Shown one piece after another: positions 1 to 34,375 of a stretch of DNA of 37,127 nt (its first letter is position 1; each line of letters opens with the position of its first letter). Under the pieces are notes generated by a model that was given only the letters and a program-made list of their open reading frames with translations, was not told where the DNA came from and did no database searches. Origin of the DNA: Oscillospiraceae bacterium (GTDB taxonomy: Bacteria; Bacillota; Clostridia; Oscillospirales; Ruminococcaceae). Location: positions 1 through 37,127 of the forward strand of contig JAFLUE010000007.1 of assembly GCA_022508945.1 (NCBI GenBank). The letters are read 5' to 3'. Made by a program: the position numbers and the translations under genes.

Positions 1-111
1 TTCAGACGCTGCTTGTTTTTGCGAATTGCGTAAGTGTCTATAATTGTTGTTCTTGTCGAAAAATCTTTTTTGTTGGTTTTTATTTGAATTGGCAATTCGC
101 AAACCTCACAG

Positions 112-193
112 CGAGCCTTCGGCGCGCTGCGCTATCAAATCGACGGGTATGAGCGCTGCTTATACCCGTCGATTATTTTGGAAATTTCGCGCT
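112..193 (-). repeat. Dispersed intergenic repeat, copy A, with central hairpin
   Basis: Minus strand reads AGCGCGAAATTTC...GATAGCGCAGCGCGCCGAAGGCTCG; matches 28902-28984 (+) 13/13 and 23/25 at its ends. Central inverted repeat 138-154/158-174, 16 of 17 pairs plus a wobble. Confidence 0.75.
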
Positions 194-378
194 TGACTAT
201 TGCGTTGTTTTTAGTGCTTATAATGTTGTTCTTGCCGAAAAAATCGCGCGGGGTTGTTGCACTGCCTATACGCGGTTAATGGTTGGCGGGCGAGGGGATT
301 TTATATGATTCGATTGTTAAGTTTCACCAAATGTCGCGTGAAAAAGTAACAACTTTACACAAAACAGAGTAAAAACTA

Positions 379-469: not shown

Positions 470-3400
470 ATGCTTTTGAGAACAAAAGCAACAAAGGTTA
501 TTGTCTGGCTTTGTATAATGGCTCTGGCGATAACCGCAATTATTCCGAGCGGCTTTGTTCTGCCTAAAGTCCGGGCAGAAGTTACCGATAACGGAGAAGA
601 ATGGGATTTCGCAAAGGGCATACTCGTTACAGAGGCTCAGGAAAACCCCAAAACAACTGAAACCAATGATGGCAGTTTGACAATTAAGCCGAATGGTTCG
701 AGTTATTATTACAAAGACTCTTCACATGGCATTGTGCTTAATTCAGGTGTTACCATCGAAATCGAGGTTTCCGGTCCGACAAATCTTACTATTGGCGATT
801 GCCAATACTCTAACAATAGTACATCATGTAAACTTACGGTTAAGAGCTCGGACGGAAAATACAACGTCGAAAAGGACACTAACAACGGTTGTTATCACAA
901 TGGTAGTTCATTGGTGTACACATACACAGGCGGTGCTACAACTCTTACCATTGGATTTACCGGCAGCTATATCTACGTTCCTTACATTTCTATCGCGCCC
1001 GAAGCTGTGCCCGAGGCAGGCAAGACTTATACTTGGGATTTCGACGCAGATCCGGCTATTCCGAAAGATACCGAAGGAAAATCCGAGGTTACATCGAAGG
1101 ACGGACTGCTGACTGTTAAGACAGGCGGCAGTGCATACAGATATAACGGCGGTGGTCACGGTATTGAATTTAAACCGCAAAACTCTATTGAAATAAAGGT
1201 CGCGGGTTCAACAAAGCTCACTATAGGCGACTGCGGCTACTCCAACCCGACTACACTTACAGTTAAGGACAAGAACGGAAGCTACAAGGATACCGCGTCA
1301 ACTACGGTCAACGGCTGCAGCGGCGCGATGACCTTTACCTACAAAGGTGAGGCAACGACTCTTGAAATTACGTTTGTTGATTTGAGCATCTACATTCCTT
1401 ACATTACTGCCGAGCCGCTTGAGGAGGAAGAATCCAAGCCCGAAGTCAGACCCGACGAGCCTAACAAGACAGACGTTTGGGATTTCGGCGCGGCGAAGCT
1501 TGATGAGTCGAAATACAACAATTTGCTGACAGAGGCTGTCATCAACAGCTGGTATCCGGAAACCACTATAGTCGGTTCTCAGGATAAGAATACTACTACT
1601 CATGTGTTCGGCACTGTTGAGGCAAAGGATTTCCGTTTTGTTGACGGAAAAAATGATGGCAGGCACAGAATAAAGACCTCTAATACAAATCTTACAAGAT
1701 ACGAAACAAAGAGTAACGTTACGATCGAGGGAACATCTCTCCCCGGAGCTGTTTTCTCAAACAGCGGTTCACCCGATGTTTATATTGAGATCGTGCTTTA
1801 TGCGGGCGATATTCTTACCGTTTACGCGGGTGCTAACAATGCGGGAGACACACCTACGATTGAATTCGCTCCCCCGAGCGGAGAAACTAAGAGTGGTGTG
1901 AGCAACGCAGACGGCGTTAAGCTTACGTTCTATGCTACCGAATACGGTAAGTATAAAATTTATGCAATTGGTAGTCAAAAGCTCGTAGTTTACAGACTTG
2001 AAAGAGAACACACCAACCCCGTTGACGTAAGCGGAACCGTAACGGCTCCGAGCGATATCGGAAGCGACTATAAGATCAGCTTTACAAACCAAAAATCCGG
2101 CGCGGTAACAGAGGCGGCTGTTGAAAACGGTTCGTACAGTGTTACTCTCTACGACAACTACGTTTATGACGTTGCGCTTGTGGACGCGAACGGCTATATT
2201 GTTTCGAGCGGCGATACGCTTGATATTGCTAAGGGAAGCAGCGGAGAAACTCATAATATCACGATCTCGAAGGTTGCCCTTGCGAATGTTACGGGCAATA
2301 TCATCGGACTTGGCGATAAGCTCTCGGACTTAGAGCTTGAATTCGTAAGCCAAGACGAAAGCTCGATCTTCGTTCCCGAGATCAAGATCGAGCCGGACGG
2401 CTCGTTTACTCTTCAGCTCGCGATAGGCGTTACTTATGACATGATCGCAAGCGGCGTAAACGACTACGCTCTTGAAGAAGCGACAATAAAAGCGGATGGC
2501 GACATTACCGACAAGAAAATTACTTTCAAAGCAAAGCCCGTTTATGACATAACGATAAGCAGCAATCTTCCCGATGAAGCGAAGGGGAAGGCAATTATCA
2601 TCTTTACACATACCGAGGACGGAAATGAATATACGTTTGGTCTGTCTGACACTATCAAGCTCAGAGACGGACAGTATTCCGTAGTTGTAAAGAACACGGG
2701 TATAGTTCCCGTAGCTCAGAAGCCCACCGCAAACCTCACAGTAAACGGCGCGGCGGTATCAAAGGAGATCGAATTTGAGGCAATAAGCGTATGGGATTTC
2801 TCTAAGTACAACGGAAAGCCCGGAATGGATACCGACAACGACTATTATCTCGGACTTGCGGTCAAGAACGCTTATGAGCATGGTGTTTATCTTCGTGTAG
2901 CGGCAAACGGCGAGGTCAAGGTCCCCGTAACAAAGGGACAGATGGTGACTGCTACCTTCTGCAATTCGGGAACTTTCACCATCAACGGCAAATCCTTCAC
3001 TACCGTAAACAGTAAAGGCAGCACCAGCAAGACCGATGAAGCACGCGTGGTTGCTGAAGAGACCGGTTATCTTACCATATCGGTTACGGAGCAGACATAC
3101 TTCAACAGTATCGCAGTCTCCGAATCCACGGGATTCAAGGACAAGGTAACCGTAGGCCCCGATAAGGATTATCAGACAATAAACGAAGCTCTCGCGGCTG
3201 TGGCTAAGATGGACAGACCCAACAACGAGAGAGTTGAGATCGTAATTGACCCCGGAAACTATGAGGAAATGCTCGTTATCAATGTTCCGAACGTTTCGCT
3301 CGTAAACGCCGCGGGCAAGAACTCGAGCCTCCAGCTCAAAAACAACGGCGTTGATATCTGCGACAATGTTGTAAGAATCACATCCTACTATGGCTTCGGC

Positions 3401-5002
3401 TATAACTACTACAGCATGGGAACAGACTGCAAGTGGAACGAGGATGTTCTCAAGGCTAACAAGGCAAACGGTGAATACACGACCGTAAATCCCGAAGGAA
3501 CAACAAACGGCTGCTACTGGAACGCAACGGTAGTTGTAAAGGCAAGCGGCTTTGAGGCAAACGGAATCGTATTCGAAAACTCCTTCAACCAGTACATCTC
3601 CAAGAAGGAAGCCGATGATATCGTTGTTCATAAGGGCGGTACTCCCAATATCGGCGCACGTCCCACGACTTACGGCGACACAAGCGTTCAGAACAGAAGC
3701 TATGTGGAAAGAGCCGCGGCAATGGCTATCGTAGGCGATGAAGCGTTATTTGTAAACTGCAAGTTTGTCGGCAGACAGGATACCCTCTACGGCGGCACGG
3801 ACATCAAGGTCGCTTTCCACAAGTGTGATATTCTCGGCGCGGTTGACTTTATCTTCGGTCCCATGACCGCTGTGTTCTACAAGTGCAATCTCGTTATGAA
3901 CACAGACGATTCGACCTCCTCCGACCAGGCTTATATCACCGCCGCACAGCAGAAGACCGGCAGAGGCTATCTTATGTATGAATGTACGGTAACTTCTACC
4001 ACACCCGGCGTTGATACAGCTTCCAAAACACTCTCGAAGCCCGGCTTCTTCGGTCGTCCTTGGTCGGCAGACACCTCCGAGGTCGTATTCTACAAAACGA
4101 CCGTAGAAACCACGGATTACCCGGCTGCGAACGGAAAGTCTCTTATTGATCCGGCGGGCTGGAAAGATTCTCTGAAAGCGCGCTCCTCGAAAATGTATGA
4201 ATATGGCACGATCGAGAAAAGCGGCGAGGATAATTCCGCAAGCAGAGCTGACTGGACTACGTTCCTGACAGAGCCTGTCATTGACGGCGAAAACATTACA
4301 ATAGCGCTGTTCCTCGGCAACTGGGCAAGCGAGCTTCAGGCGAGAAGTCTTCTTCTCGAGACTGAAAGCGATGATCCAGAAGATCCCGAAGAGCCTGATG
4401 CTCCCGAGATCATCGAGCGCGAAGCCGAGGGCGTTAAAGCAGAGCTTTCGACAGACGCGCTTCCCGAGGGCGTAGACCCCGATGATGTTGAGTTCAAGGC
4501 ACAAGTGCTTACATCAAGCGACAATGAAGTCCTTTACGACCTCAAATTCGTTGTGGGCGGTGTTGAGATACACATCAACGGCACTGTCACCGTAAGACTG
4601 CCTTTGCCCGCTTCATTCAAAGGTGCGGATGTATACGTTTACTACGTTGACGACAACAATAAATACACCCCGATGAATGATGTTGCTGTTGACACTGAAA
4701 ATGGTCTTGTTGAATTTACGACGACCCATTTCAGCCATTACCTCCTGACGACCGAAGTCAAAGGCTCAGTGACTCCCGAACCTTCCGAACCTACCGAACC
4801 CGACGATCCTTCAGGTCCGTCTACGCCCGATGATGATCCGTCAAGCACACCTTCCTCCGGCTCGTCATCAACCACGCCTCCGGCATCTAACCCCTCGACA
4901 GGCGATATCGCAATGATGCTTATCACGCCTATCGCGGCAGGACTTATCAGCGCGGCGGCAGCTCTCTTCATTATTATAAGAAAGAGAAGAAAAGCAAAAT
5001 AA
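470..5002 (+). CDS. Multidomain surface pectin methylesterase (CE8, pectinesterase family)
   Basis: Signal peptide; repeated WDF-starting beta modules; pectinesterase motifs (GAVDFIFGP, GFFGRPWS); C-terminal NPSTGD + hydrophobic helix + RKRRKAK sorting signal. Confidence 0.9.
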   Translation: MLLRTKATKVIVWLCIMALAITAIIPSGFVLPKVRAEVTDNGEEWDFAKGILVTEAQENPKTTETNDGSLTIKPNGSSYYYKDSSHGIVLNSGVTIEIEVSGPTNLTIGDCQYSNNSTSCKLTVKSSDGKYNVEKDTNNGCYHNGSSLVYTYTGGATTLTIGFTGSYIYVPYISIAPEAVPEAGKTYTWDFDADPAIPKDTEGKSEVTSKDGLLTVKTGGSAYRYNGGGHGIEFKPQNSIEIKVAGSTKLTIGDCGYSNPTTLTVKDKNGSYKDTASTTVNGCSGAMTFTYKGEATTLEITFVDLSIYIPYITAEPLEEEESKPEVRPDEPNKTDVWDFGAAKLDESKYNNLLTEAVINSWYPETTIVGSQDKNTTTHVFGTVEAKDFRFVDGKNDGRHRIKTSNTNLTRYETKSNVTIEGTSLPGAVFSNSGSPDVYIEIVLYAGDILTVYAGANNAGDTPTIEFAPPSGETKSGVSNADGVKLTFYATEYGKYKIYAIGSQKLVVYRLEREHTNPVDVSGTVTAPSDIGSDYKISFTNQKSGAVTEAAVENGSYSVTLYDNYVYDVALVDANGYIVSSGDTLDIAKGSSGETHNITISKVALANVTGNIIGLGDKLSDLELEFVSQDESSIFVPEIKIEPDGSFTLQLAIGVTYDMIASGVNDYALEEATIKADGDITDKKITFKAKPVYDITISSNLPDEAKGKAIIIFTHTEDGNEYTFGLSDTIKLRDGQYSVVVKNTGIVPVAQKPTANLTVNGAAVSKEIEFEAISVWDFSKYNGKPGMDTDNDYYLGLAVKNAYEHGVYLRVAANGEVKVPVTKGQMVTATFCNSGTFTINGKSFTTVNSKGSTSKTDEARVVAEETGYLTISVTEQTYFNSIAVSESTGFKDKVTVGPDKDYQTINEALAAVAKMDRPNNERVEIVIDPGNYEEMLVINVPNVSLVNAAGKNSSLQLKNNGVDICDNVVRITSYYGFGYNYYSMGTDCKWNEDVLKANKANGEYTTVNPEGTTNGCYWNATVVVKASGFEANGIVFENSFNQYISKKEADDIVVHKGGTPNIGARPTTYGDTSVQNRSYVERAAAMAIVGDEALFVNCKFVGRQDTLYGGTDIKVAFHKCDILGAVDFIFGPMTAVFYKCNLVMNTDDSTSSDQAYITAAQQKTGRGYLMYECTVTSTTPGVDTASKTLSKPGFFGRPWSADTSEVVFYKTTVETTDYPAANGKSLIDPAGWKDSLKARSSKMYEYGTIEKSGEDNSASRADWTTFLTEPVIDGENITIALFLGNWASELQARSLLLETESDDPEDPEEPDAPEIIEREAEGVKAELSTDALPEGVDPDDVEFKAQVLTSSDNEVLYDLKFVVGGVEIHINGTVTVRLPLPASFKGADVYVYYVDDNNKYTPMNDVAVDTENGLVEFTTTHFSHYLLTTEVKGSVTPEPSEPTEPDDPSGPSTPDDDPSSTPSSGSSSTTPPASNPSTGDIAMMLITPIAAGLISAAAALFIIIRKRRKAK

Positions 5003-5037
5003 TGCCATTTGGCAGAGCTGAATAAGCGAATAAAAAC

Positions 5038-5070
5038 AAGACCCGCGGTTTAAAAACCGTGGGTCTTTCT
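5038..5070 (+). terminator. Rho-independent terminator
   Basis: AAGACCCGCGGTTT / AAACCGTGGGTCTT hairpin followed by T-rich sequence. Confidence 0.75.
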
Positions 5071-5158
5071 AACGAAAAAAACAAATATTTACATATATTT
5101 TTGTACAATTGCACAAAAATCGCATTGAAAAATCGGCGGTTATTTTTGAGGAAATCCC

Positions 5159-5187
5159 TTGACAAAACGGCGATTTTAGGGTATCAT
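5159..5187 (+). promoter_or_regulatory. SigA-type promoter for the pectate lyase gene
   Basis: TTGACA (5159-5164), 17-nt spacer, TATCAT (5182-5187). Confidence 0.7.
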
Positions 5188-5257
5188 TAAAGATGAAATA
5201 GTTTTCGATTAGGGATAGTTGTACCCTTTTGAAAACAAAAATGAGAAGGAGGATTTT

Positions 5258-8200
5258 ATGAAAACCAAAAGCACAAACAGGTTTGTCTCGTTGGCTTTGG
5301 CGCTCATTATGCTAATGACGTGCGTGTCGTTCAGCCCGTTAGCTATGCGCGCGAGTGCTGAAGGGGCAGACTCGAGTAAGTATGTTTTTGACGTAGGCGA
5401 TTTGGAGTTGGTGGCGAAAGGTGCCAAAAACGGTAAGACAGAATCGGCGGGTACTGACGAATATTTTACCGTTTGTTATGGAGATTCAAACGCACAGGTT
5501 GTAGAAAATGCAACAGGATTTGAAGGCGGATATACGTCGACTAAGCGTTTGGACTTTGGAGGTGCAACAAGCGACTCTCAATTTTCCGGACGCAAAAGAG
5601 TTATTGAATTTACTACAAGTGGTAAAGCTTCCGTAACGGTATGGTGGCAGTGCGGTACGAGCGACGGAAGATATGTTGCGCTTTATAACGCAGACACAAA
5701 GGATTTTATTTATAGCGATGATATTAATGTTGCTTTAGACACTACCGAAAACAAAAACAAGGCAGACACAACCAAGGACAAAACCTATATTTCCACATAC
5801 GAGCTTGATGCCGCGGGAACATATAGAATAGGTTGTGGATATAATACTTGCTATTTATTTAAAGTTGAAGTAACTGAAAGCGCGGCTGGGACTGATACGC
5901 CCGTTGAAACTAAGGATTACACTCTCGAAGCTAAAGACTTGGAGACTATTGCCTCTACTTCCGGTTCAACACAGGAAGGTACTGCAACAGAAGACGGTAA
6001 ATATTTCACCGTTAACTGGGGCGAAAAGGGTAGAGTTTTAGACGGCAAAAATGTTAGCTACGAAGATGGTTATACCAGTACAAAATGGATAGATTTTAAC
6101 GGCGGTACAAGCAGTGCGCCTACAAGGACTATCCAGTTTACCGCGGGCGACAGCGGTATTTTAAAGATTTGGTGGGGCAATGACGGTAGCGCTGAAAGAG
6201 GTCTTCAAGTGTACAAACTTGATGGCGCAGCAGCTACCGCGATAACAGATGCTTATTTCAAAACAGCAGGAAAGTCAACCAAATATGACGAGTTTGAAAT
6301 AGAAGCCGGCAACACATATTGCATCGGCGGTCCTGACGGAACAATTTATTTTACTAAAATAGTTGTTACCGAGGGCAAGCTTCCCGAAGCACCGACACGT
6401 CCCGAGTGGAGCCAAGTAGCAGCTCCCACGATCGGCGAGATTACACAGGACGGAGGCACGATCAAAGTTCCCGTAACCGCTGATGTTGGTAACAACGGCG
6501 GCGACAAGATAGCTGTCGTTATGACCGATGCAAACGGAAATGAGCTCGACTCAGCAGCCAGCACAGTCAAAGATAAAGGAAATTATACTCTTGAATTTTC
6601 TTCGGCTAAGAATTCGGGTACATACAAGTTTAAGGCTGTTCTGTCCCGTAAAGACGAAACAGACGTCAAGGAGAGCGCAGAAAAAGAATTTACTTTCCTG
6701 CTTCCTCTCGACAAGCCCACTATCTCGAGCGCTACCAGCAAGGGTAACGGTTCTGTTGAGTTAGAATGGAGCGCGGTTAAGGAAGCTACAAGCTACATCA
6801 TTTACTGCGATGGCGAAGAGGTAGGCACTGCGACCGAGACCAAGTTTATGGTTACGGGTCTTACCGTAGGTCAGACATACTCATTTACTGTAAAGGCTGT
6901 TCGCGATGGTGTACCGGCAGAAAAGGCTTCCGACGCTAAGACCGCTACTGTTGCAGAGCAAGCTCAGCAGACATGGAGCTTTATGTGGTTCGGTACTTCC
7001 ACAAGCAAGACTAAAAACTATTATGAGGGCGAACTTAACGAAGACGGAAAGGTAACTGTTGTCGCTAAAGGCGGCGGCGGCAAGTTCCTGTATCAGGAGC
7101 CCGGCGGCGAGGGAGTTTCGTTCTATTATACAGCAATCCCCACAAATGTCAATTTTACTCTCAGAGCTAAGATGAAAATTGACGAAAGAAAACTTAACAT
7201 CTCTCAGGAGGGCGCCGGCATTATGGCTATGGACAGCCTTCCCGAGACACCTTTCGATTCGAGCTATAAGCACACAACAAACCTGTACAGAGTAGGCGCA
7301 CAGCAGCTCAAGTACTACTATGACGAGAACAGAGGCGTTGTTTTCGACACATCCGCCGACTCGTATAACATGCAGATCGGTCTTGGTACAAACGCAAAGA
7401 CCGGCGCAACCGCAAGCGATAAGTCAAATATGCTGCTCGAAAATGCTACTCTCGAGACTATAGCGGCGGATAAGGGTTATGACAGCGGAACTTACTGCAC
7501 AATCGGCGGAGACCCGAATCCCGGCAAAAACGTTATAGCAGAGATCGATGAAATGATCTTAGAGCTTCAGAGAAATAACACAGGTTATTTCCTCTCTTAC
7601 TACACTGTAGACGGAGAGCTTGTAAAAACTCAGAAGTACTATGATCCCAAGGCGCTTGACGTGCTCGATTCCGATTTCGTTTATGTCGGCTTCACAGCAG
7701 CAAGAGAGGTTACAGCTACATTCTCCGATGTAACTCTCACCACGATCGCTCCCGAGAAGGACGCTCCCGCAGAGGCTAAGCCCATCACGGAGATCACTCC
7801 TACAGTATCGGTTGGTTCTGCTACATCGGCAAACTCGACTAAGTATACTCTTCTCCTCAAGAGCAACGTTTCCGGTAAGGTTAAGGTAATCTCCAACTCG
7901 ACGACCGTAGCTGAGGATGTTGTTCTTGACGGTTCAATTAACTATGTTTCTATAGAATTCGCGATCGTTGTCGGAAACAACAAGATCGAAATCATCTTTA
8001 CTCCCGACGAAGAGCAGGCATCGTTTGACGAGTTCACTAAGCTTACATCTACAGCTGATGTAACTAAGACAATAATGGTTAGACTTGATGACGTTGCTAA
8101 AGATCAGAAGAACCTTTATGTTTCTCCTTCCGGCTCAAGCAGCGGCAGCGGTACTAAGGACGATCCCTTCGATGTTTACACAGCGGTAAATATTGCAAAG

Positions 8201-9556
8201 CCCGGTCAGACCATTATTCTTATGGAAGGCAGATACAACCTTACCAAGAACCTCTTGATCGACCGCGGAATGAACGGTACATCCGAGAATCCCATCAGAA
8301 TGATCTCAGACCCCGACGCAAAATCACGTCCTGTGTTTGATCTGCAGGGAATATCTACAATGACTGCTGCGGGAGATTACTGGTATTTCTATGGCTTTGA
8401 TGTTACAAATTCTGTCAAGGCCGGTCTCGTAGTAGCAGGAAACCACAGCACATTTGAACTCATAAACGCATACTCGAACGAGGATACCGGTATATATATT
8501 CACGCGAAAAACAACAGCAACGACCCGAGGTCACTTTGGCCTTCTTACAACCTTATCCTCAACTGCACATCTTATGACAACGCCGACGCTATAACCGGCG
8601 GCGGAAACGCTGATGGATTTGCAGCTAAGCTCACCGTTGGCGAAGGCAACGTATTTGACGGCTGTGTAGCTTATAACAACAGCGACGACGGTTGGGATCT
8701 CTTTGCAAAAGAATCTTCCGGTCCGATCGGTGCTGTTACAATTAGAAACTGTATCGCTTATAACAACGGTAAGAATCTTGACGGTTCATTAGTTGGTGAT
8801 GGAAACGGCTTCAAGATGGGCGGTTCAGGTATCCCCGGCGAACACAAGATCTATGATTCCGTTGCGTTTAACAACGATAATAACGGTATCGACTGCAACT
8901 CCAGCCCCAACATTCAGGTTTACAGATGCACGTCGTATAACAACGGCAACTATAATATTCGTCTTGAAACAACCTCAAGCTATGCAGATCCGACAGCATA
9001 TGTGGTTGACGGTCTGGTATCCTTTAGGTTTGAAAAGGCAAGAGCAACAGGCGTTAACGATAAGGTTGATCCTAAGAACGGACAGACGCTCAGCGTACTT
9101 GAAAGTGTGATCAACTACTACTGGAGCAAGGGCAACAGCAATGGCGAAACGCTTTCTGCAGATATGTTCAAGGATCTCGATTTCAACGGATATGAGCGTT
9201 CAGCAGACGGCAAGATCGATCTCAAGGGCTTCCTCGCACTTAGCGATAAAGCTCCCCAGGCTCTTACATCGATATTCAAAGCTCTTGACGGCAACTATAC
9301 AACCTATGACTACGCGTCTGATCCCAATTACGTATTAACCAGCGGATCTGCGGTTGAGCCTGATCCCGAGAATCCTTCTTCCGGTAATGGCGGAGACTCC
9401 GGATCCGGAAGCGGAAGCGGCAGCGGCAGCACAACTAAGCCCGCTGAAACCGCTCCTCCTACAGGATTTGGCGTTGAAATCGTAGTTGCGGTACTTGCAG
9501 TTTCCGCGGCGGCTGCTATCGTTCTCTTCACTAAGAAGCGCAGAAGCAGCAAATAA
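5258..9556 (+). CDS. Multidomain surface pectate lyase (PL9-like) with duplicated N-terminal modules and FN3-like domains
   Basis: ATG 5258 preceded by AAGGAGG (the track start at 5219 is a TTG). Signal peptide; parallel beta-helix region KNLYVSPSGSSSGSGTKDDPF...GGGNADGFAAKLTVGEGNVFDGCVAYNNSDDGWDLF typical of PL9; C-terminal APPTGF + helix + KKRRSSK. Confidence 0.85.
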   Translation: MKTKSTNRFVSLALALIMLMTCVSFSPLAMRASAEGADSSKYVFDVGDLELVAKGAKNGKTESAGTDEYFTVCYGDSNAQVVENATGFEGGYTSTKRLDFGGATSDSQFSGRKRVIEFTTSGKASVTVWWQCGTSDGRYVALYNADTKDFIYSDDINVALDTTENKNKADTTKDKTYISTYELDAAGTYRIGCGYNTCYLFKVEVTESAAGTDTPVETKDYTLEAKDLETIASTSGSTQEGTATEDGKYFTVNWGEKGRVLDGKNVSYEDGYTSTKWIDFNGGTSSAPTRTIQFTAGDSGILKIWWGNDGSAERGLQVYKLDGAAATAITDAYFKTAGKSTKYDEFEIEAGNTYCIGGPDGTIYFTKIVVTEGKLPEAPTRPEWSQVAAPTIGEITQDGGTIKVPVTADVGNNGGDKIAVVMTDANGNELDSAASTVKDKGNYTLEFSSAKNSGTYKFKAVLSRKDETDVKESAEKEFTFLLPLDKPTISSATSKGNGSVELEWSAVKEATSYIIYCDGEEVGTATETKFMVTGLTVGQTYSFTVKAVRDGVPAEKASDAKTATVAEQAQQTWSFMWFGTSTSKTKNYYEGELNEDGKVTVVAKGGGGKFLYQEPGGEGVSFYYTAIPTNVNFTLRAKMKIDERKLNISQEGAGIMAMDSLPETPFDSSYKHTTNLYRVGAQQLKYYYDENRGVVFDTSADSYNMQIGLGTNAKTGATASDKSNMLLENATLETIAADKGYDSGTYCTIGGDPNPGKNVIAEIDEMILELQRNNTGYFLSYYTVDGELVKTQKYYDPKALDVLDSDFVYVGFTAAREVTATFSDVTLTTIAPEKDAPAEAKPITEITPTVSVGSATSANSTKYTLLLKSNVSGKVKVISNSTTVAEDVVLDGSINYVSIEFAIVVGNNKIEIIFTPDEEQASFDEFTKLTSTADVTKTIMVRLDDVAKDQKNLYVSPSGSSSGSGTKDDPFDVYTAVNIAKPGQTIILMEGRYNLTKNLLIDRGMNGTSENPIRMISDPDAKSRPVFDLQGISTMTAAGDYWYFYGFDVTNSVKAGLVVAGNHSTFELINAYSNEDTGIYIHAKNNSNDPRSLWPSYNLILNCTSYDNADAITGGGNADGFAAKLTVGEGNVFDGCVAYNNSDDGWDLFAKESSGPIGAVTIRNCIAYNNGKNLDGSLVGDGNGFKMGGSGIPGEHKIYDSVAFNNDNNGIDCNSSPNIQVYRCTSYNNGNYNIRLETTSSYADPTAYVVDGLVSFRFEKARATGVNDKVDPKNGQTLSVLESVINYYWSKGNSNGETLSADMFKDLDFNGYERSADGKIDLKGFLALSDKAPQALTSIFKALDGNYTTYDYASDPNYVLTSGSAVEPDPENPSSGNGGDSGSGSGSGSGSTTKPAETAPPTGFGVEIVVAVLAVSAAAAIVLFTKKRRSSK

Positions 9557-11491: not shown

Positions 11492-11538
11492 AAAATTTCC
11501 CCCTTACTATACAGCAATATTCTATTCTCTGATATTTC

Positions 11539-11627
11539 ATTATATCACAAATTCAAGCGCCAAAGGCGCGGCAGCGCAGCATTTTGCACCGCGAAATGTG
11601 TGCAATGTAATTTTGCGAAGCAAAATA
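11539..11627. repeat. ~90-bp direct repeat, copy 1 (intergenic)
   Basis: attatatcacaaattcaagcgccaaaggcgcggcagcgcag...attttg...tgtaattttgcgaagca; second copy at 11717-11803. Confidence 0.8.
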
Positions 11628-11640
11628 ATTTGATGATTCA

Positions 11641-11718
11641 ATAAAATTGCCGTTCGGCGTAAGCCGACAGTGCCGAATGGCACAGCAAAACCGCGACAGC
11701 GGTTTTCGGAAATTTTAT
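11641..11718. repeat. Multi-hairpin inverted-repeat module between the two direct repeats
   Basis: Outer stem ATAAAATTGCCG/CGGAAATTTTAT (11/12) enclosing TCGGC-GTAA-GCCGA, GTGCC-GAAT-GGCAC and AAAACCGC-GACA-GCGGTTTT. Confidence 0.75.
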
Positions 11719-11803
11719 TATATCACAAATTCAAGCGCCAAAGGCGCGGCAGCGCAGTATTTTGCTTTGCAGAATGTGTGCGCTGTAATTTTGCGAAGCA
11801 TAA
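11717..11803. repeat. ~90-bp direct repeat, copy 2 (intergenic)
   Basis: attatatcacaaattcaagcgccaaaggcgcggcagcgcagtattttgc... parallels 11539-11627. Confidence 0.8.
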
Positions 11804-20933: not shown

Positions 20934-20985
20934 GAGTAATTTTAAAGGGGACCCTTTTAAAAAAGGGTCCCCTTTAAAATTACTC
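20934..20985. terminator. Bidirectional terminator-like perfect palindrome (25-bp arms, 2-nt loop)
   Basis: GAGTAATTTTAAAGGGGACCCTTTT-AA-AAAAGGGTCCCCTTTAAAATTACTC; right arm contains the stop of the MetRS-like gene. Confidence 0.75.
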
Positions 20986-28452: not shown

Positions 28453-28901
28453 TGAAATAGTCCTCCTTGAAACTGGAATTTTATAGTAGAATTATCCGAT
28501 AAAATTATAGCACAATTACAAAAAATTTTCAAGCGGGATTTTATATTTTTGTGAATTTTGCGTAAAAATACGTAAAATGGCTTTACGGCAGTAAATTTTT
28601 AGCTGTTCTATACGGATATTATTTGTATAAATCGCCGAACTTTGCTTTTTGAAAAGGATTTTTGTCGTCGAAAGTTGTATTTATTTACAGACGGGCAAAA
28701 GAGATTAAGAGTTTGCACACGGATATAATGTTGTTTCGGCGGATTTATCACATTGATACTACGTTGTGTCGGACGGATTTATTTAAAAATAATTTCAAAA
28801 TTCGCGAGATACTAAAATGCTGTTCCGGCGTATAACTAAATAAATTCGCGTCTGACCACTGTATGGTTTTAATTTATCCGTTTGAAGCCACAAAATGGCC
28901 G

Positions 28902-28984
28902 AGCGCGAAATTTCAAAAATCGGCAGACGCGGCGCAGCGCAGCTGAGCCGTGGCTGCCGGATAGCGCAGCGCGCCAAAGGCGCG
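28902..28984 (+). repeat. Dispersed intergenic repeat, copy B, with central hairpin
   Basis: AGCGCGAAATTTC (28902-28914) ... GATAGCGCAGCGCGCCAAAGGCGCG (28960-28984); centre CGGCAG..CTGCCG stem; whole unit further enclosed by GAAATTTCAAAA (28907-28918)/TTTTGAAATTTC (28993-29004). Confidence 0.75.
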
Positions 28985-29102
28985 GTGCGCGGTTTTGAAA
29001 TTTCTTTTTAAATCATCGGTCAAATACAACGTTACATCCGAGCAAAACATTACAGCCGAGAAAGAAATCCGCGGTTACTAATCTCTGAAGGGGGTTGAAT
29101 GT

Positions 29103-30113
29103 ATGCTTCCTCGTGAACGGATCGAACAGAACGAGCATTTGATTTTAAGCGAATTTGCCTGTAGGGCGGATATGTCAAAGGGGCGCGCGGTATATGAAAA
29201 GCCGTGTGAGCTGCGTACGGACTTCCAGCGTGACCGCGACAGAATTATCCACTGTAATTCGTTTCGCAGGCTAAAGCATAAAACGCAGGTCTTTCTTGTC
29301 CCTCTCGGCGACCATTATCGCACTCGGCTCACCCATACCCTCGAGGTAAGCCAGATCTCCCGCACAGTCGCGAGAGCGCTCGGCTTAAACGAGGACCTTA
29401 CGGAGGCGATCGCTCTCGGGCATGATCTGGGGCATACTCCGTTCGGTCACGACGGAGAGAGAATGCTCGGCACTCTTGTAAGCGGAGGCTTTCGTCATAA
29501 TCTTCAGGGCAGGCGTGTTTGTGAGAAGATCGAAAAGGACGGAAGGGGACTTAATCTTACTTATGAGGTCCTTGACGGAATTTGCGGACATACGGGAGAT
29601 AAGCTTCCCGAAACGCGCGAGGGAATGGTCGTTCGCTACTGTGACAAAATTGCTTACATAAACCACGATATCGAGGACGCTGTCCGCGGCGGAGTCATCA
29701 CCCAGGATATGCTTCCGGATTTTCCGGTAAAGGTTCTCGGAAAAACAAAATCCGCGCGTATTGCGAGTCTTGTGAACAGCCTTGTGAAAAACAGCGGCGC
29801 GGAAATAAAAATGGATTTTACCACGCAGAAGGCTCACGACGAGCTTCGCGAGTTTATGTTTGAAAAGGTATACCGCGCGTCTAAAACCGTTTCGGAAAAG
29901 GACAAGGCGTCGTATATAGTAGAGTATTTGTTTAAGTATTTTTTCAATAATAAGGACAAGCTTCCGAGGCTTTATCTCGATATATCCGAGCGCGACGGTC
30001 TTGAAACGGCGGTTTCGGATTTTATCAGTGGAATGACGGACGAGTATGCCATCGATTATTTTACGGCGCTTTGTGTTCCGAAAAGCTGGAAGAGCGGATA
30101 TATAGGAAACTGA
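29103..30113 (+). CDS. dgt: Deoxyguanosinetriphosphate triphosphohydrolase-like HD protein
   Basis: FRRLKHKTQVFLVPLGDHYRTRLTHTLEVSQISRTVARALGLNEDLTEAIALGHDLGHTPFGHDGE. Confidence 0.93.
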   Translation: MLPRERIEQNEHLILSEFACRADMSKGRAVYEKPCELRTDFQRDRDRIIHCNSFRRLKHKTQVFLVPLGDHYRTRLTHTLEVSQISRTVARALGLNEDLTEAIALGHDLGHTPFGHDGERMLGTLVSGGFRHNLQGRRVCEKIEKDGRGLNLTYEVLDGICGHTGDKLPETREGMVVRYCDKIAYINHDIEDAVRGGVITQDMLPDFPVKVLGKTKSARIASLVNSLVKNSGAEIKMDFTTQKAHDELREFMFEKVYRASKTVSEKDKASYIVEYLFKYFFNNKDKLPRLYLDISERDGLETAVSDFISGMTDEYAIDYFTALCVPKSWKSGYIGN

Positions 30114-30156: not shown

Positions 30157-32139
30157 GTGTTTAAAACGGCAATTTCACCTGAATTTCAAGCGTTTCTGGA
30201 CGAGCTATGCAGAAACAGCGACATTTCTTCCGTCGCGGCCGAGCGCGGGATAAGCGTAAGGCGCTCGGGAAACAATTATTCATGCTGTTGTCCGTTTCAC
30301 GCGGAAAAAACACCGTCCTGCCATCTTTATACAGAGGATAACCATTTCCACTGCTTCGGCTGCGGAGCGCACGGAAGTGTCATAAAATTTGTCATGCAGG
30401 CGGAAAATACGGACTTTATGAATGCCGTGGAGATCCTGTCGAGCCGTGCGGGAATGACTGTTCCGCGCGGAAACGGCGGCGGAAAATACAAGCCGAAGGC
30501 TAAATATAACAGCTCCAATAATTACAGCCGAAGTTATCCGTCAGCCCCCGCTTCCGGCAGCGCAAGTCCGTCAGTCCCCGCGAATTCCGCAGAACCCGCA
30601 AACAGAGCTGCGGAATATTCGGGTCCCGATGAACCCCCGCCAATGACGCAGGAAGAATATTATACGTCTTATGATGACGGATATTCGAGGAAAAAGCGCA
30701 TTTACGAGATGAATCAACAGGCGGGCAGCTTCTTTCACAAACAGCTTTTTTCTCCCGAAGGAAAAGCGGGTCTGGATTATTTTACGGAGCGCGGACTTTC
30801 GGTTGAGACCATAAGGCGGTTCGGACTCGGATATGCGGCAGATGATTATCATAAGCTTCATTATTATATGAGGAGCCTCGGATATTCCGACGCGGAGCTT
30901 AAAGAAGCCGCGCTTATCAATACACGAAACGGAAAAGAGTTTTACGACAAATTCAGAAACCGCGTTATGTTTCCCGTGTTTGACGAACAGCGGCGCGTTA
31001 TCGCGTTTGGCGGAAGACGTATTGACGGCGGCAAAGAAATGAAGTATATCAATTCCGACGAAACGCCCGTTTTTCAGAAGCGCAGAACACTGTTCGCGCT
31101 GAATTACGCGAAAAAATCCAAGGCGGACTATTTCATAGTCTGCGAGGGGTATATGGACGTTATAGCCATGCACCAGGCGGGCTTTGACAGCGCGGTGGCT
31201 TCGCTCGGAACTGCGATAACCTCCGAGCAGGCGGAGCTGCTTTCAAAAAGAGGAAAGACAAAGGTCGTGCTTTCCTACGATTCGGACGCGCCGGGTCAGA
31301 AGGCTACTTCAAAGGCGATAGGGCTTTTTATGCAGACGTCGGTCGAAAAGGTGAGCGTTCTGAAAATATCGGGAGCAAAAGACCCCGATGAATTTATAAA
31401 GAATTATGGCGCGGAGCCGTTCAAAATGCTTATTGAAAATTCAACGGGAGCGGTAGCGTTTGAAATGGAGCGTCTGTCGGAGGGGCTTGATATGAACAGT
31501 CCCGATGACAAAAACGTTTTTATCAGGCGCTCCGTGAGGTTTATGTCTGAAATAGCGGATCCGGCGTTTCGGGAGCTTTGTGCGGAAAAAACGGCGGAGC
31601 TTGGAAATGTTTCAAAAAAATCGGTTTTGGACGGTGTGAACGACCTTGTTTCGCGGAAGGCTCCGTACGCGAAAATGAAGTCTGCGGAGACGAGGGCTGA
31701 CACGGGATATGGCGCGGAGGAATACGGCGGATATGACGGGGATATCGAACGCGGATATAATGACCTCAAAGGCAAGGAGAACGCCGAAGACGCGGTTTTG
31801 TCATATTTGTTTCACAACCCCGATGATATCCGAAAAATCGAAGAACGGCTTCCGGACGGATTGGTCACGGAGTTTGGAGATAAAGCATACAGGCTTTTGC
31901 TTGAAAAGATCCGCGAAAGTCATGGAGAATGCGAAATTTCGTGGCTCAATGAGAAATTTCCCGAAAAAATGGGCAGAATAACGGAAATCGCAAACGATAC
32001 GATCTACGCCTACAGCGAGGAATGTTTTCTCGAAGCAGCGGGGAAGCTTTCGGAGATAAAGCGCAGCTCCGAAAGCGTCTGTACATTTGCGGAGCTTGGC
32101 GATTATATACAGTATAAACAAGAAAAAGGAGAGAGTTGA
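30157..32139 (+). CDS. dnaG: DNA primase
   Basis: Zn finger [75 protein letters not shown] start. Confidence 0.95.
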
Positions 32140-32144
32140 TAGAT

Positions 32145-33236
32145 ATGTCTGAAAATTTAAGAGGAGAAAATCTGCTCGAAGAGCTTTTTAAGCAGGGAAA
32201 GAAAAAGGGCTTTCTTACTGCGAGGGAGATAACGGACGCTCTCGAAGAGCTTAACTTTGACGCGAATCAGATAAACCGTATTTTTGACAAGATCGCGTCA
32301 ATGGATATAAAAATCGTTGATAACTTTGATGTTGATACGGATTTTGATATCGATAATATTTTCGATTACGGCGAAAGAGATTTTGATAATCCCGAAGCGG
32401 ATATAGTTACGGCGGACGACTCCGTAAAGCAGTATCTTAAGGAGATAGGCAGAATACCGCTTCTTTCGACCGAAGAGGAGATCGATCTTGCCGCGAGAAT
32501 GGCGGCGGGCGACGATACCGCGAAAACAAGACTTCAGGAAGCAAATCTGCGGCTGGTAGTAAGTATAGCGAAAAAGTACGTCCGCAGGGGAATGCAGTTT
32601 CTCGATCTTATCCAGGAGGGAAATGTGGGCTTGCTTAAGGCTGTCGAAAAGTTTGACTATACAAAGGGCTTCAAGTTTTCGACATACGCGACCTGGTGGA
32701 TAAGACAGGCAATAACCAGAGCCATCGCCGACCAGGCGAGAACCATTCGTATCCCTGTCCATATGGTTGAAACGATTTCGAGAGTAAAAAAAGCGGAAAC
32801 ATATTTGCTGCATGAAAACGGAAGCGAGCCTACCGAGGACGAGATCGCAGAGTATCTCGGAATGTCTACCGAGAAGGTCCGCGAGATAATCCGCCTCGCA
32901 CAGGATCCCGTGTCGCTCGAAACACCTATCGGCGAGGAAGAGGACAGCCACCTCGGAGATTTTATCCCCGACGATGACGCTCCCGCGCCTGCCGACGAGG
33001 CTTGTAACAGTATGCTTAAGCAGATGCTGAGCGATGTTCTGGATACGCTTTCGGACAGAGAGAAACGCGTTATCATAATGCGCTTTGGACTTATTGACGG
33101 GAGAGCGAGAACGCTTGAAGAAGTCGGACAGGAGTTTCAGGTCACGCGCGAGCGCATAAGACAGATCGAAACAAAGGCGCTCAGAAAGCTCCGCCACCCT
33201 ACTCGAAGCAGAAAGCTGAGAGATTTTTTGGAATAA
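32145..33236 (+). CDS. rpoD: RNA polymerase primary sigma factor (RpoD/SigA)
   Basis: Region 1.1-like N-terminus, [36 protein letters not shown]-type region 2/3, [42 protein letters not shown]. Confidence 0.95.
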
Positions 33237-33322
33237 AGGGCTGCTTACATAAGACATATAAGCGGCATATTTGCTGTGAGAATTTTCACGGATATGCCCG
33301 AAGAATAAAAAGGATAAAATAA

Positions 33323-34375
33323 ATGAACAATACAGAAAAGATTTTAAGCGAGCTTGTTGAAAAAGCAAAGCAAACAGGAACTCTCAGCGCAAAAGAGCTG
33401 TATAATTTAATAGATGAGATCGACTTGGATATAGACAAGCTCAATGATTATCTCGAGCAAAACAATATAAAGCTTATCGACGATTTTATCGTTGAGGATG
33501 ATCTTGAAGACGGACTGAGCTATGATGAAAACGATCAGAGCGGAGCGGTCCTTGACGATCCCGTCAAGATCCACCTCAGAGAGATCGGACGCATACCGCT
33601 TCTTACAGCCGAGGAAGAAATAGAGCTTGCCCGAGAGATAGCGGATGGAAGCGAGGAAGCCCGAAACAAGCTTATTGTCGCGAATATGAGGCTTGTGGTA
33701 AGTATAGCGAAGCATTATGTGGGCCGCGGAATGCCGCTTCTCGATCTTATACAGGAGGGCTACAGCGGGCTTATAAAGGCTGTCGAAAAATTCGATCATA
33801 CAAAGGGCTATAAGTTTTCGACCTATGCGACTTGGTGGATAAGACAGGCAATAACAAGAGCCATAGCAGACCAGGCAAGGACGATACGTATTCCCGTGCA
33901 TATGGTCGAAACAATTTCCCGCGTAAAGAAAACACAGAACGCGCTGCTTCATAAAAACGGACGCGAGCCTACGACGGCTGAGATCGCGGAGGAGCTTAAA
34001 ATGACATCGGACAAGGTAAGAGAGGTCATGCGTATCTCTCAGGAGCCGGTGTCGCTTGAAGCGCCGGTGGGAGAAGAAGAGGACAGCTTTTTGGGAGATT
34101 TTATACCGGACGAGGACGCTCCGACGCCGGTAGATACGGCGATGAAATCCGTATTCAAGGACGAGCTGAACAAGGCTCTGGACACTCTCCCCGAGCGCGA
34201 GCGCGAGGTTCTGAAGTTCCGTTATGGAGTCGGTTATGACCGCTCGCATACTCTCGAGGAAGTCGGAAGACAGTTTAAAGTGACTCGCGAAAGGATCCGC
34301 CAGATCGAAGCAAAGGCGCTTAGAAAACTCCGCACCCAGGGAAAAAGCAAGGGTCTGAAGGTCTTTCTTGATTGA
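33323..34375 (+). CDS. Second RpoD-like sigma factor (tandem paralogue)
   Basis: Full sigma-70 regions 1.2-4.2, nearly identical region 2.3-3.0 to the upstream gene; region 4.2 [43 protein letters not shown]. Confidence 0.93.

Follow-up and report, generated by a model that had tools for sequence, protein, structure and literature searches.

Upstream regions that recur before unrelated genes within one genome are known as putative mobile promoters (promoter propagation). In the family described here, the moving unit is instead a folded element lying between an upstream module and the SD, and the flanks stay behind. Correia (CREE/NEMIS) and ERIC elements are conserved in sequence, and their position is not fixed relative to start codons. 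They resemble the present family as inverted-repeat elements of ~100 bp and can be transcribed into UTRs, as is generally known and summarised in PMC3049150. The BOX elements of Streptococcus pneumoniae, described together with RUP and SPRITE, are co-transcribed with genes and can alter their expression (PMC3049150). Like the present family, they are modular intergenic repeats of Firmicutes, with boxA and boxC forming the outer structure and boxB an inner module that folds independently, but the modules of BOX are recognised by their sequence and are enriched between convergent genes (PMC3049150). Judged against this published description, the present family is set apart by interchangeable arms held by pairing only and by a nearly fixed distance to the start codon in two species. 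REP/REPIN-RAYT systems are similar in their high-copy short palindromic repeats, their hairpins and their oriented small loops (PMC8049555). The present family differs from them in forming a three-way junction rather than paired hairpins, in its fixed leader position, and in the absence of Y1/RAYT from the genome studied here and from four other carriers (G018, G427, G424 and G423). In the literature searched, of which coverage was partial, no prior description of this repeat family was found.

Architecture and copies in the window's genome

The window is a stretch of 37,127 nucleotides that makes up one contig of an Oscillospiraceae genome of 2.33 Mb in 284 contigs (G000). A preliminary description had pointed to two dispersed units in it, with constant ends around a variable hairpin. 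Both blocks are present where reported, and their common 13-nt start and the end block matching at 23/25 positions are correct. The proposed unit of 82-83 bp, however, stops inside a second hairpin and omits the 3' arm of an outer stem, so that the full element measures 97-98 bp (98 bp in copy B, 97 bp in copy A). Nor is the core a single variable hairpin: the element is a three-way junction in which an outer stem P1 (GAAATTTCAAAA/TTTTGAAATTTC) encloses hairpins P2 and P3. Read 5' to 3', it consists of P1 (~12 bp), P2, whose lower part carries a bulged purine, a single A as linker, P3, GG and the 3' arm of P1. The parts of the copies in the window are as follows.

28907..29004, + strand: copy B, complete three-way-junction element (covariance model match 28907-29015, 106.7 bits; fold)
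28907..28918, + strand: copy B, P1 5' arm GAAATTTCAAAA (sequence, fold)
28919..28962, + strand: copy B, hairpin P2 with base ATC/GAT and a bulged G at 28959 (fold; ATC/GAT pairing suggested by covariation)
28964..28990, + strand: copy B, hairpin P3, GCGCAGCGCGCC AAA GGCGCGGTGCGC (fold)
28993..29004, + strand: copy B, P1 3' arm TTTTGAAATTTC (sequence, fold)
29005..29015, + strand: AT-rich spacer TTTTTAAATCA downstream of copy B (by comparison, leader copies elsewhere run into AAGGAG)
28884..28906, + strand: upstream module of copy B, a degenerate form of AAAACAACGTTATATTCGAGCGC (comparison with other copies)
28756..28800, - strand: degenerate opposite-strand family unit made up of the P1 3' arm and the downstream module (89% identity, 58 bits; also seen as inverted repeat I2)
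92..188, - strand: copy A, three-way junction of 97 bp with P1 partly degenerate, apparently chimeric (covariance model match 81-188(-), 83.2 bits; fold)
177..188, - strand: copy A, P1 5' arm GAAATTTCCAAA (sequence)
138..174, - strand: copy A, hairpin P2, AATCGACGGGTATAAGC AGC GCTCATACCCGTCGATT (sequence, fold)
106..132, - strand: copy A, hairpin P3 (sequence, fold)
92..103, - strand: copy A, P1 3' arm TTTGCGAATTGC, of the type of another subfamily (comparison with loci L179 and L199)
189..211, - strand: upstream module of copy A, AAAACAACGCAATAGTCAAGCGC; the same module precedes many copies (sequence comparison)
1..29, - strand: 5' part of a third element (GCAATTCGCAAAAACAAGCAGCGTCTGAA), truncated at the contig end (1 mismatch against L179)

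Copy A looks chimeric, as its 5' P1 arm is of the GAAATTTC type and its 3' arm TTTGCGAATTGC belongs to the other subfamily (GCAATTCGCAAA; L179, L199). Compared with dinucleotide shuffles and with flanks included, the two full copies fold with z = -5.2 and -4.9, and 0/200 shuffles were as stable. In hairpins from the window's genome and from two close species, G018 (MAG JAAVIC01) and G427 (CAMWMN01), the apical loops on the sense strand of the element are mostly GNA/AAA triloops (GCA 46, GAA 43, AAA 40 and GTA 12 vs TTT 14, TTC 6 and TGC 3). Triloops of this type are known from very stable single-strand DNA hairpins.

A chance GC-rich similarity between just two copies had been raised as the reading that would undo the preliminary description. 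It is countered by the covariation of P1, P2 and P3 in a relative and by a search of the host genome, which returned dozens of copies: GAAATTTCAAAA with at most one mismatch occurs 305 times genome-wide, against 14 times for the reversed control. A DNA consensus search gave 93 matches, and a covariance model from 12 copies (R1) gave 110 at E<=0.1, some of which are the palindromes read on the antisense strand. As copies are frequent at contig ends, the true number is probably higher. The hairpins are highly variable, with many unrelated P2 arms combined with one P1, and a second subfamily has the P1 GAATTTCAAAA and a different joining sequence. Only 6/62 copies in this genome adjoin an SD at leader spacing, so a leader role is not simply transferable to the two flagged copies. 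Terminator-like hairpins enclose several of the copies. At L074, L080 and L197, matching terminator-like hairpins flank the element on both sides and differ between copies, as if the elements had been inserted in terminator loops.

The window has further features besides these copies. Next to copy A, positions 470-9556 encode a pair of very large proteins, of 1510 and 1445 aa, whose pectinesterase and pectate-lyase-like beta-helix domains predict a role in pectin degradation. Another repeat pair at 11525-11803 (101 nt, 87% identical), with a AAGCGCCAAAGGCGCGGCAGCGCAGC block and hairpins of its own, is apparently separate from the family studied, and a perfect 25-bp inverted repeat with a 2-nt loop (I7) is found at 20934-20985.

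Leader position and covariation in two close species

In G018 and G427 the family has at least 150 and at least 85 copies, respectively. Nearly all of them are on the coding strand, followed by an SD and start codon 15-25 nt after P1 (mode 20-21). Among 106 elements from these two species and a few other loci, 88 show this spacing on the same strand and a single such case occurs on the opposite side; the remainder are largely first members of tandem pairs, or lie at short ORFs or contig ends. The downstream genes are unrelated housekeeping genes, including those for ribosomal proteins L20 and L2, CTP synthase, GMP synthase, IMP dehydrogenase, AccC (biotin carboxylase), SmpB, AlaS, pyruvate kinase and AroQ; ten of these assignments and three phage-type ones were made by family model and the others by sequence recognition. 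Other congeners share the layout, yet with other P1 sequences, although one of these comparisons selected perfect stems and hence shows the variety of P1 rather than its pairing. In a prophage-like block of G018 (L123; contig 9, 72000-78000), separate three-way-junction leaders precede a major head protein gene, a head-tail adaptor gene and another gene of a phage family, which suggests that the host leader has spread into phage genes.

A TATAA-like box is conserved ~30 nt before P1. This upstream motif is a possible promoter, but no -35 is visible, and the module also occurs in tandem arrays, sometimes with truncated elements. The window itself carries two adjacent primary-type sigma-70 genes at 32136-34375 (+), with 71-79% DNA identity over aligned blocks at a spacing of 1139, the second of which matches sigma-70 regions 1.2-4. 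Tandem housekeeping-like sigma factors are unusual, and perhaps they might be related to the unusual promoter-like module.

Ribosome-site insulation was considered as the main effect of the leader. The mean unpaired probability of the ribosome site is 0.564 in native sequences, 0.530 when shuffled and 0.523 with the element deleted. This predicted gain in accessibility is significant but small, and insulation alone may thus not explain the leader.

Pairing is kept as the sequence changes. In an alignment of 26 G018 sequences, 98.1% of cells are standard pairs, vs 82.0% when shuffled and 32-45% with partners slid. Two-sided change is seen in 36/50 pairs, including 6/12 in P1, so that all three stems covary, and the covariation score is 0.452 vs 0.171 for shuffled sequences. 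Template switching in imperfect palindromes has been reported to create and maintain hairpins (PMC8794818), and because it can also homogenise palindromes (PMC8794818), a test of strand was included. GU- and AC-type mismatches count the same in a palindrome of double-stranded DNA, while GU alone can pair in the sense RNA. Distinct hairpins in G018 and G427 have a GU:AC ratio of 140:20, or 82:17 once the commonest shared motif is removed (p 2e-11). In the window's genome, copies away from an SD give 33:25 (p 0.36), and G006 hairpins give 17:7 (p 0.06). P1 is without the wobble bias (21:15). Ascertainment does not explain the GU contrast, as the models behind every set favour GU equally; transcription-linked, strand-biased mutation could add to the GU excess. 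Based on the 5'-UTR position, the strand-specific wobble tolerance and the fixed start-codon spacing, selection at the RNA level is likely in G018 and G427.

Arm exchange, insertion and distribution

G018 and G427 share ~96% protein identity. Most of the orthologous genes examined between them keep their leader, but many pairs differ by complete replacement of one or more stems; P2 or P3 is gone from some leaders, and two G427 orthologues are without the element. Within G018, similarity between elements barely follows that of their flanks (Spearman 0.12 and 0.08), and an identical 112-nt element precedes two different genes. The identities of P2 and P3 are also nearly independent (correlation 0.06), with one P3 sequence found in seven elements with different partners. 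P2, P3 and flanks thus assort almost independently.

At rdgB, an attempt to polarise the insertion was set aside: the element is absent from all congeners with a readable junction, but layout and start position differ among them and many loci were unparsed. The dgt locus lies downstream of copy B.

29103..30113, + strand: dgt, dGTPase-like HD phosphohydrolase (HD and HD_assoc domains; ATG 98 nt past the end of copy B)
28696..29102, + strand: upstream region, 407 nt from the conserved dgt promoter region (which ends GACGGG at 28695) to the dgt ATG (comparison with congeners)

The same promoter-to-ATG interval is 19 nt in the close relative G006, which leaves ~390 nt extra in the window's genome, and in the congeners with a readable site these ~390 bp are missing, the dgt promoter region lying about 20-60 nt from the ATG. 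Copy B is therefore part of a lineage-specific insertion. The 407-nt interval holds copy B, the opposite-strand degenerate unit and other repeat modules, and by this comparison copy B would have arrived upstream of dgt as part of ~390 bp of repeats. It is on the same strand as dgt, but at 98 nt from the ATG it is off leader spacing. The empty sites at dgt and at the G427 orthologues show no clear target-site duplication, the dgt insertion being composite.

A covariance model derived from 26 copies in one congener (R2) detected the family in 15/43 congeners, in numbers from 1 to at least 150, with no matches in the other 28. Of 394 genomes sampled from the order, the window's own was the sole match, and a scan for the leader pattern over 84,980 species returned five MAGs only (JAAVIC01, CAMWMN01, JAFLUG01, JAIEDJ01 and JAAVHV01). 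The family is restricted to one Clostridia genus, in which, according to a dgt protein tree, carriers fall in two separated parts. The named carriers are draft MAGs, and most of the leader data come from the G018/G427 pair. Carriage by phages was rejected, as the leader pattern had no matches in the viral contigs scanned, though one prophage-like block of G018 has leaders. As to a mobilising enzyme, a search for the Y1 family found none in most carriers: among eight tested, Y1_Tnp (PF01797) occurs only in G006 and is absent from G000, G018, G427, G424, G423, G021 and G023. A REP/RAYT system was rejected on this ground, although short palindromic hairpins in many intergenic copies are a trait of REP/REPIN sequences, just as the terminal inverted repeats formed by the P1 arms are one of MITEs.

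Possible function and origin of the family

The preliminary description had left a choice between a structured RNA under covariation and a mobile palindromic family of the REP or MITE kind. Each alternative finds support, in different genomes. In G018 and G427, position at a fixed distance before start codons, pairing kept under sequence change and strand-specific wobble tolerance argue for a structured 5'-UTR leader. Most copies in the window's genome lack these leader features: they lie away from gene starts, the wobble bias is absent and one copy sits in a lineage-specific insertion, all of which favours repeat DNA, though not of the REP/RAYT kind, whose defining Y1 transposase is absent there and from four other main carriers. 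The family is thus probably a modular palindromic repeat that acts as a putative structured 5'-UTR leader in some species and has spread as intergenic repeat DNA in the window's genome.

Judging from position and wobble bias, the leader would be transcribed in G018 and G427, placing an RNA element beside the ribosome landing site, ahead of the AT-rich TATTTAGATAAGGAG. Its very stable, self-contained fold could shield the 5' side of the mRNA and so affect stability, and it could prevent base pairing between the landing site and other sequence. A stable generic fold would suit a role in protecting the mRNA 5' end. As the element serves unrelated housekeeping genes, it would be a generic leader rather than a sensor. 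Copies may spread and swap arms by copying or recombination between dispersed elements, and in the window's genome the family would have spread mainly as intergenic repeat DNA.

Alternatively, the element could be selfish and MITE-like, moved in trans by some transposase that targets the AT-rich stretch before the SD, its RNA fold being useless to the host. The terminal inverted repeats, the high copy number, the patchy occurrence among species and the lineage-specific insertion at dgt would all agree with this, as would copies between terminator-like hairpins in the window's genome and identical copies with unrelated flanks. We nevertheless regard it as unlikely, given that strand and spacing are nearly invariant in G018 and G427, that the wobble bias tracks the sense RNA only where a copy is a leader, that leaders persist at orthologous genes, and that no matching IS was identified and Y1 transposase is absent from five of the main carriers, the window's genome included. 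The conserved junction (bulged purine, A, GG), the variable distal stems, the 5'-UTR position and the conserved upstream motif rather recall a regulatory RNA class, either a riboswitch or a protein-binding leader, that would convey one global signal to >100 genes. Such a role is distinctly doubtful: the junction bases are conserved, but conserved unpaired bases are few, and the genes come from all pathways, those for ribosomal proteins and phage heads among them. No Rfam family matches either; Rfam reported only a tRNA in the window and nothing above the gathering cut-off in six loci. The known RNA family NrrF, the best sub-threshold match, was rejected (E 0.011, antisense and far below the cut-off).

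Covariation might also have arisen during DNA replication, through template switching that copies one arm onto the other and produces paired change without selection. The mechanism is a reported one (PMC8794818), and GU:AC is balanced in the window's genome, but it leaves the start-codon spacing and the strand bias of mismatches in G018 and G427 unexplained, and the three-arm architecture is kept across species with different P1, P2 and P3. It is improbable as the sole source of the covariation and likely as a contributing process. In a further alternative, the elements would be attC-like sites at which a cassette system recombines, or group IIC intron targets, in line with their variable imperfect palindromes with conserved ends and the proximity of copies to terminators. 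By inspection, the core motifs RYYYAAC/GTTRRRY are absent from the element ends, and the elements precede ordinary housekeeping genes rather than cassette-like ORFs, which makes this origin hardly credible.

On the reading of a putative leader derived from a repeat, one lineage may have adopted a single three-way junction, determined by pairing rather than by sequence, as a regular component of the 5' UTR of >100 unrelated genes and diversified it by arm exchange, so that what is a scattered repeat in a relative has become a domesticated leader; this is put forward tentatively, as a possibility we rate at somewhat less than even. Dispersed palindromic repeats are usually treated as junk or as occasional regulators. 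Covariation in such palindromic repeats calls for a strand-specific test, for example of GU against AC mismatches. The interchangeable arms amount to a natural experiment in which the contribution of structure to leader function can be told apart from that of sequence. Since the same family occurs in related species both as dispersed DNA between genes and as a uniform component of the 5' UTR of many transcription units, the step from selfish repeat to a part of gene expression would be open to direct study.
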